From: Salvelinus alpinus
Lineage: Eukaryota > Chordata > Actinopteri > Salmoniformes > Salmonidae
Assembly (NCBI RefSeq): GCF_045679555.1
Contig: NC_092091.1
Location: 70,732,963-70,796,962, forward strand
DNA length: 64,000 bases
Direction of reading: 5' to 3'
Every line of letters begins with the position of its first letter. Within the stretch, counting starts at the first letter, position 1. The notes under the pieces are model-generated. The model saw only the letters and a list, made by a program, of their open reading frames with translations. It had not been told where the DNA came from and did not search any database. Shown piece by piece: positions 19,801 to 22,800 of the stretch. A program made the translations under genes and the position numbers.

Positions 19801-22800
19801 TACAAGTGTGTATTGGAAATGTGTTTTTTTGCATATGCCAATTCTCCCTGAGAGATCCTAAGAGAGTGAGGTCATGGCCAAGGTCTGCCATTGTCAACCA
19901 CGATCTTAGAGCAATTAAGCTAAAGTGCCTTGCTTAAAGGCACATCAACAGATTTTTCCCCTTGTCGTCTCTGGGATTCTAACTAGCAACGTTACGGTTA
20001 TTGGCCCAACGCTCTAACCAATAGGCCATGCTATTATACAAAAATATAAACGTAAAATGCAAAGTATTTGTGTTTCATGTTTCATGACTTGAAATGAAAA
20101 ATACCAGAAATGTTCCATATGCACAAAAAGCTTATTTCTCTCAAATTTTTCTCTCACAATTTTTTTTAAATCTCTGTTAGTGAGCATTTCCCCTTTGCCA
20201 AGATAATTAATCCACCTGACAGGTGTGGCATATCAAGAAGCTGATTAAACAGCATGATCATTACACAGGTGCACCTTGTACTGGGGACAATAAAAGGCCA
20301 ATATAAAATGTGCAGTTTTGTCACACAACACAATGCCACAGATGTCTCAAGTTGAGGGAGCGTGCAATTGGCAAGCTGACTGCAGGAATGTCAAACAGAG
20401 CTGATTCCACAGGATTTAATGTTCATTTCTCTTGAATGTTGATTTCTCTACCATAAGCCGCCTCCAACGTCATTTTAGAGATTTGAGCAGTACGTCCAAC
20501 CGTCCTCACACCTGCAAAACACGTGTAACCATACCAGCCCAGGACCTCCACATCCGGCTTCTTCACCTGCGGGATCATCTGAGGGTGGGGTGGGGGGGGT
20601 TTATCTCTGTCTGGTTCTGGCTCCCCAGTGGGTGGGCCTATGTCTTCCCAGGTCCACCCATGGCTGCACCCATTACCCGGTCATGTGAAATCCATAGATT
20701 AGGGCCTAAGGAATTGATTTCAATTGACTGATTTCCTTCTATGAACTGTAACTCAGTAAAATCTTAGAAATTGTTGCATGTTGCATTTATACCCCTGGCA
20801 CGCACACGTCCCGCACGCACATGAGAGGAACAACTCCTTTATATCAGGCACATGTACTCCTTAACAACAAGGATGAGAGGAACAACTCCTTTATATCAGG
20901 CACATGTACTCCTTAACAACAAGGACGAGGGGAACAACTCCTTTATATCAGGCACATGTACTCCTTAACAACAAGGACGAGGGGAACAACTCCTTTATAT
21001 CAGGCACATGTACTCCTTAACAACAAGGACGAGGGGAACAACTCCTTTATATCAGGCACATGTACTCCTTAACAACAAGGACGAGGGGAACAACTCCTTT
21101 ATATCAGGCACATGTACTCCTTAACAACAAGGACGAGGGGAACAACTCCTTTATATCAGGCACATGTACTCCTTAACAACAAGGATGAGAGGAACAACTC
21201 CTTTATATCAGGCACATGTACTCCTTAACAAGGATGAGAGGAACAACTCCTTTATATCAGGCACATGTACTCCTTAACAAGGACGAGAGGAACAACTCCT
21301 TTATATCAGGCACATGTACTCCTTAACAACAAGGACGAGAGGAACAACTCCTTTATATCAGGCACATGTACTCCTTAACAACAAGGACGAGGGGAACAAC
21401 TCCTTTATATCAGGCACATGTACTCCTTAACAACAAGGACGAGAGGAACAACTCCTTTATATCAGGCACATGTACTCCTTAACAACAAGGACGAGAGGAA
21501 CAACTCCTTTATATCAGGCACATGTACTCCTTAACAACAAGGACGAGAGGAACAACTCCTTTATATCAGGCACATGTACTCCTTAACAACAAGGACGAGG
21601 GGAACAACTCCTTTATATCAGGCACATGTACTCCTTAACAACAAGGACGAGAGGAACAACTCCTTTATATCAGGCACATGTACTCCTTAACAACAAGGAC
21701 GAGAGGAACAACTCCTTTATATCAGGCACATGTACTCCTTAACAACAAGGACGAGAGGAACAACTCCTTTATATCAGGCACATGTACTCCTTAACAACAA
21801 GGACGAGGGGAACAACTCCTTTATATCAGGCACATGTACTCCTTAACAACAAGGACGAGGGGAACAACTCCTTTATATCAGGCACATGTACTCCTTAACA
21901 ACAAGGATGAGGGGAACAACTCCTTTATATCAGGCACATGTACTCCTTAACAACAAGGACGAGAGGAACAACTCCTTTATATCAGGCACATGTACTCCTT
22001 AACAAGGATGAGAGGAACAACTCATTGAATGCTATTCATAAAACTCCATGCTAGATTTACCAAGTGCTCCCTCCTAGAAGTACATTTGCCAAAACCCTTA
22101 ATCAACACCTACTATTTATTGTCATAGGCTTGGAAAATGTGTAAAAATCTTTAATCAAACACATTGCTGTGAATTTATACATTTCTAAATACCAGGTGGT
22201 ACGGTTACCATTCCAAAAAAGGTTTATTACGTACAGTTGAAGTCGGAAGTTTACATACACCTTAGCCAAATACATTTAAACTCAGTTTTTCACAATTCTT
22301 GACATTTAATCCAATAAAAAATTCCCTGTCTTAGGTCAGTTAGGATCACCACTTTATTTTAAGAATGTGAAATGTCAGAATATTAGTAGAGAGAATGATT
22401 TATTTCAGCTTTTATGTCTTTCATCACATTCCCAGTGGGTCAGAAGTTTACATACACTCAATTAGTATTTGGTAGCATTGCCTTTAAATTGTTTAACTTG
22501 GTTCAAACGTTTTGGGTAGCATTCCACAAGCTTCCCACAATAAGTTGGGTATATTTTGGCCCATTCCTCTCACATGCTTTTTCAGTTCTGCCCACAAATT
22601 GTCTATAGGATTGAGGTCAGGACTTTGTGATGGCCACTCCAATACCTTGACTTTGTTGTCCTTAAGCCATTTTGCTACAACTTTGGAAGTATGCTTGGGG
22701 TCATTGTCCATTTGGAAGATCCATTTGCGACCAAGCTTTAACTTCCTGACTAATGTCTTGAGATGTTGCTTCAATTTATCCACATGATTTTCCTTCCTCG

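Follow-up and report, generated by a model that had tools for sequence, protein, structure and literature searches.

The window analysed here, a stretch of 64,000 nucleotides at contig positions 70732963-70796962 of a 2.37-Gb genome, carries tet2 on its minus strand (Table 1); the names tet1, tet2 and tet3 were assigned here from sequence. The translation of the exon at 18807-18957 matched Pfam PF12851 (Tet_JBP) with an E-value of 7.7e-08 and 32.2 bits, short of the curated threshold (34.9); the open reading frame at 15431-16951 matched the same family above that threshold (47.3 bits, E 1.7e-12). The true acceptor, TTTAG/GAG at 18957, sets the exonic/intronic boundary at 18957/18958 and is supported by four paralogous exons, each of which starts after an AG at the corresponding place; these counterparts lie on C5 and C19 (tet1-like) and on C3 and C32 (tet3-like), a pairing of loci that would fit a salmonid. 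The label "exon 5" given in the initial annotation is a count of coding exons; in human numbering this exon is exon 7. Upstream, the donor GGA/GTAAGG at 27191/27190 gives the tet2 intron a length of 8233 bases. This intron also contains transposase gene pieces at 22493-23053 and 24252-24887 (Pfam DDE_3 and HTH_Tnp_Tc3_2). No second tet2 copy, a possible outgroup, was found in the genome, where exon matches corresponded to two tet1-like and two tet3-like loci. Searching the genome with 3.1 kb taken from the large tet2 exon returned eight matches, namely the window itself and seven short ones (35-43 bases); since this sequence has no second copy, tet2 appears to be single in the genome.

Table 1. 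Features of the tet2 locus discussed in the text (window coordinates; ends of TE1 and TE2 approximate).
Feature	Position	Strand	Basis
tet2 coding exon 5, 151 bp, start of the Tet_JBP domain	18807..18957	-	Pfam and four paralogous exons
Parent junction, acceptor TTTAG/GAG and the 52 bases matching one unit	18943..18994	-	Ungapped local alignment, score 64
TE1, common repeat with inverted termini ATACTGAAC...GTTCAGTAT	18999..19766	+	Inverted termini, genome copies
TE2, inverted copy of the TE1 repeat	20032..20791	-	Identity to TE1, inverted pairs
20-base exact exon copy at the exon-side end of the array; its host copy without acceptor AG	20792..20811	-	Exact match, gapped alignment
52-bp minisatellite, 23.3 copies, 23 sites with pyrimidine tract and AAG/GAG	20823..22023	-	TRF, site listing
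Upstream tet2 exon, ending ...R-R-C-A-I-N-E-GA/GTAAGG	27191..27399	-	Sequence, translation, tblastn against paralogs, acceptor listing

TRF resolved the array with a period of 52 and 98% matches, 1.9-3.0 kb upstream of the true tet2 acceptor, in agreement with the roughly 23 copies first reported upstream of the real site. On the tet2 strand, 23 sites of the form AAG/GAGTACATGTGCC were listed, spaced 52 or 49 nucleotides apart; in them GAGTACATGTGCC follows TTGTTAAG or TTGTTGTTAAG. As the initial annotation had stated, the array carries AAG (23 of 23 sites) where the parent junction has TAG. The parental ATGAGAGG is kept in four of the 23 units, both end units (20859 and 21997) included. The branch-point consensus is yUnAy. 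A branch-point-like CTGAT arises at the join of two units and precedes 22 of the 23 sites; in the unit tested it lies 37 nt before the acceptor and fits the consensus. At the true tet2 site, no yUnAy match was found between -18 and -44. A genome search with the array, using a DNA search that skips simple and very common words, gave six overlapping matches, all at the tet2 locus, and the upstream flank (22020-22200) likewise falls at a single place in the genome; a dispersed satellite family was rejected on these grounds. TRF also reported a 49-bp minisatellite of 19 copies and 97% matches at 45710-46647 of the window, and a 29-bp minisatellite of about 96 copies at 61229-64000 that runs past the window end.

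The doubled unit aligned with the junction without gaps over 52 columns, scoring 64. Dinucleotide shuffling of the 101-base junction stretch (2000 replicates) gave a mean score of 13.4 and a maximum of 29; once array and junction had been masked, the best score elsewhere in the window as far as 61200 was 33. The majority unit is identical to the junction at 30 of 36 intronic and 12 of 16 exonic bases, and the unit at 20859 at 32 of 36 and 12 of 16, respectively. The initial alignment of the unit to the tet2 intron/exon junction is thereby borne out, and the chance-level similarity that had been named as telling against it was not found. The earlier observation of 20 exactly preserved exon bases at the array edge facing the exon was also reproduced: the window holds two exact matches to the piece CCCCTGGCACGCACACGTCC, one beginning at 18936 and the other at 20792, and 7 of its bases fall outside the unit. 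The copy that hosts it, the outermost and nearest to the exon, is damaged, with 9 bases in place of 15 that include the AG in a gapped alignment. The statement that each unit keeps an acceptor therefore stands for all 23 listed sites and fails for this outermost copy.

As a control, 32 minisatellites including that of tet2 were collected from 248,112 bases (period at least 20, copies at least 2.8, overlapping rows merged). Thirteen of the other 31 arrays have a match scoring at least 40 within 6 kb, a frequency that speaks for chance similarity of a minisatellite to an exon edge. Judged by unit and place, these 13 mostly look like pyrimidine/purine or TG/AC runs; among the control arrays, two 23-bp arrays of tet1b match each other and two adjoin their own match. 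Set against a score of 64 where 2000 shuffles reached at most 29, and against an exact exon 20-mer at the array edge, chance similarity is improbable in the extreme. The resemblance of unit and junction is best read as common descent, with the conserved exon as the parent, and the alignments support an array that arose from an exon-edge copy and whose units retain acceptor-like sites. The exon-edge duplication expanded into an array, as initially proposed, is thus upheld by the unit-junction alignment together with the exact 20-base remnant.

The notion that the array abuts the exon did not hold, as about 1.8 kb occupied by TE1 and TE2 separates the two. These inverted repeats are identical at 617 of 708 aligned bases (87%); genome-wide, the TE1 repeat gave 11582 first-look candidates, and among the 40 scored the best other copy was 86% identical. 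TE2 is cut short by ~15 bases at its array-side end, and the exon piece begins at that break. The predicted fold of minus-strand RNA 18901-20920 reached -1125 kcal/mol, compared with -546 to -581 for 10 dinucleotide shuffles, with 606 of 780 predicted pairs spanning more than 300 nt; the fold includes a predicted hairpin of ~1.8 kb. Because the TE stem closes at 20787/19017, this naked-RNA prediction would place the array edge at about 60 nt from the true acceptor; the same prediction has the acceptor region partly paired, and a 5-pair helix links 20838 to 18902.

The corresponding intron of tet3a contains a pyrimidine minisatellite with a 60-bp period and 22.9 copies (C32:29331163-29332541), which ends 12 nt before the acceptor; the last two AGs are 1443 nt apart. 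In the ohnolog tet3b, the corresponding intron is ~208 nt long and has one such pyrimidine tract, the array being absent. With one G in 1379 bases, the tet3a array brings no decoy AG. The tet3a array makes the tract longer, the tet2 array multiplies whole acceptors, and by eye the two units are not alike. We treat the tet2/tet3a parallel as one coincidence in a small sample, given 32 minisatellites in 248 kb. The first description was incomplete in that it had missed the inverted repeats, the parallel in tet3a and the fact that the copy most like the exon has lost its acceptor. Other arrays near the tet3 genes are a 78-bp TG-rich array of 3.2 copies in tet3b (C3:61368521-61368781), which stops ~50 nt short of the preceding exon's acceptor, and a 33-bp array of about 536 copies in the tet3a region (C32:29334616-29352000), which reaches the end of the stretch examined; no match to the next two exons of tet3a (e_D and e_E) was found in that stretch (to C32:29352000).

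The most likely route of origin is a dispersed copy: an exon-edge piece would have landed at the TE2 end, and the array would have grown from it. The copied piece would have measured at least ~59 bp, including the 7 exon bases outside the unit, and may have been placed during break repair at the TE2 end, a possibility raised by the truncation of TE2 where the exon piece starts. This founder would then have expanded via slippage or unequal exchange, and the expanded array would have been homogenised while its end units stayed nearer to the parent. The main alternative, which concerns origin only and which we consider unlikely though worth keeping in view, is that the array grew in place beside the exon and that the TE block later split off its last copy. 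Growth in place has a precedent in the tet3a acceptor tract, for which the ohnolog tet3b represents the unexpanded state, and the tet2 array terminates in exon bases on the side that faces the exon; however, the insertion would have had to hit the precise join of two exon-edge copies, so that repeated exon bases flank it. As to age, local alignments of the ohnolog introns show 14-15% difference (156 of 184 bases identical for tet3 and 247 of 287 for tet1), TE1 and TE2 differ by 13%, and unit and junction differ at 4-6 of 36 intronic bases. Taken together, these divergences loosely suggest that the founder copy is old, in which case other salmonids should share it.

Splice-site strength was assessed with approximate acceptor and donor matrices, the acceptor matrix being human. 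On this matrix the true tet2 acceptor scored 5.40 and ranked third when all 485 AGs of the intron and the beginning of the exon were compared. The 23 units scored 2.87-4.68 with ranks from 4 to 42; the 3' splice-site scoring proposed in the initial annotation thus places all units below the true site. By the same approximate matrix, the rest of the scored sequence has 391 AGs, of which 18 score at least as high as the weakest unit and 2 at least as high as the strongest. Comparison was extended to 17 TET acceptors of this genome placed by homology, among them the true tet2 site (of 19 rows, those for tet3a and tet3b exon C were dropped for coding read-through): on the approximate human matrix, 14 scored higher than the best unit, whose score the remaining 3 equalled or fell below. 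One of the 17, that of tet1b, is itself AAG, so that AAG does not exclude use. By these scores, the decoys are predicted to be weak yet not absurd. That every one of the 23 sites has AAG, and that the outer copy has no AG left, could reflect chance or selection against strong decoys. For all 23 decoys the reading frame gives E-S-T-C-A and then a stop, that is, a stop after five residues, exactly as first described. Among the 261 GT sites between 22030 and 18958, the top three on the approximate donor matrix are at 19595 (cag/GTGTGG, 4.74), 20511 (cag/GTGTGA, 4.07) and 20566 (cag/GTGAAG, 3.68); the true upstream donor scores 1.33 on that matrix. All three candidate donors follow the last unit and lie inside the predicted stem, and those at 20511 and 20566 would form, with the nearest unit, a putative decoy exon of ~290-350 nt.

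Minisatellites that span an intron-exon boundary have already been described, and the tet2 array is a further case with an unusual, displaced layout. Those of amphioxus are called "mirages", in a naming paper that reportedly concerns the Adh locus. In the passages that treat them, amphioxus mirages are minisatellite-like tandem duplications of an intron-exon boundary, found in Adh3, in the globin genes BflGb6 and BflGb9 and in TnC, with PGBD5 described as similar and regular splicing reported as undisturbed (PMC3087553, PMC3902484). The BflGb6 mirage takes in the 3' end of an intron together with the beginning of the exon. Splice signals persist in many units, and copies at the cluster boundary escape homogenisation (PMC3087553, PMC3902484). 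The tet2 unit is alike in spanning the boundary of its own gene, with exonic and intronic bases around 18957/18958, and in keeping AG at 23 of 23 array sites, the outermost partial copy being without it. It differs in standing ~1.8 kb from the parent exon with two inverted repeats between, and in its ~23 copies of 52 bp, its AAG at every one of the 23 sites and its vertebrate tet2 setting. Adjacency to the parent exon is our understanding of the described mirages; the relevant passages do not state it as a condition, and we do not treat it as defining.

Related repeats occur in vertebrates. In rainbow trout irak3, according to the cited account, intron 4 carries immediately before exon 5 four repeats of that exon's first 15-17 nt (PMC6763605). 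These are salmonid exon-edge repeats, as in tet2, but they are four short copies adjoining their exon, compared with 23 longer and displaced ones. Human ABCA7 intron 18 is described as containing a 25-bp VNTR of 23.7 reference copies, the first two bases of which are the exon 18 donor; its length raises exon 19 skipping, and a cryptic donor one unit in is used (PMC5954066). This argues against taking boundary copies to be silent in every case. The ABCA7 repeat differs from the tet2 array in that it lies on the donor side, abuts its exon and has a measured function. The unit of the human CBS 31-bp VNTR, judging from its name c.1444_1467+7, likewise spans an exon/intron boundary, with 16 to 21 copies tabulated (PMC2630376), but again on the donor side and not, as in tet2, on the acceptor side. 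In OGT, the intronic splice sites of a decoy exon are thought, in the account given, to hold splicing factors from the real ones (PMC12017769); that decoy is a single exon with experimental support, and the tet2 decoys form a repeat array. Among the papers that our literature searches listed, none concerned the tet2 array, and in one of those searches no acceptor-derived array was noticed.

We consider it probable that the array is a displaced mirage minisatellite with weak decoys, one that is close to silent or contributes small amounts of poison transcript. This explanation is favoured because the alignment scores well above the shuffles and the rest of the window, the 20-base remnant is exact and the array was found once in 2.37 Gb. 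When transcribed, each unit would present a weak predicted 3' splice site composed of CTGAT, pyrimidine tract and AAG. AAG makes a poor acceptor and the true site reads TAG, so splicing is expected to skip the decoys for the most part. A decoy used now and then would yield a message with the early stop, open to nonsense-mediated decay, and with rare use of this kind the net effect would range from near-silence to a mild loss of tet2 message. Of the possible effects, near-silence with rare poison splicing appears the most likely, since all 23 decoys score below the true site and amphioxus mirages are reported to be harmless to splicing. We count against it that a unit has a yUnAy match and the true site has none between -18 and -44, that an AAG acceptor occurs in tet1b, and that repeat-borne splice signals can work, as the reported use of the ABCA7 donor one unit into its VNTR indicates.

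The silent end of this explanation shades into a purely inert array, never recognised by the spliceosome and formed by ordinary repeat expansion in a repeat-rich intron; the two are not exclusive, and strict inertness is a tentative but serious candidate. It accords with AAG in all 23 sites, with the 31 other minisatellites in 248 kb, which show such arrays to be common here, and with the harmlessness reported for mirages in the texts cited above; it sits less well with unit scores in the lower range of TET acceptors, 3 of 17 being at or below the best unit. At the other end, the array might recruit U2AF/U2 and, with downstream cryptic donors, act as a decoy exon of the OGT type, so that part of the tet2 message would be held back or poisoned and copy number would set the strength. 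We judge such a working decoy to be rather unlikely. The effect of VNTR length on ABCA7 exon 19 skipping and the support for the OGT decoy-exon principle, as published, speak for it. On the approximate matrices, the 23 pyrimidine-tract/AG sites outrank most intronic AGs and the candidate donors score 3.7, 4.1 and 4.7 against 1.3 for the true upstream donor, and the predicted hairpin draws the array near the true acceptor. However, AAG is present at every site, the copy nearest the exon has lost its AG, and the donors lie inside the predicted stem. Further still, the array might be a tet2 dosage device, in which sites brought by the giant hairpin to the true acceptor, 22 of the 23 with CTGAT, pyrimidine tract and AAG, would titrate U2AF/U2 and copy number would set the amount of tet2 message held back or poisoned; we regard this as quite improbable. 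If it were true, the tet3a parallel would mean that this TET intron has repeatedly gained acceptor-derived repeats.

The tet2 array is a clear vertebrate minisatellite grown from a splice acceptor, in which the parent junction, the edge remnant and the homogenised core are all still readable. The tet3a and tet3b introns provide a second case in the corresponding intron, with the unexpanded ohnolog as a built-in outgroup. Salmonids would allow a test of whether boundary-derived arrays are harmless or whether their copy number tunes the gene.
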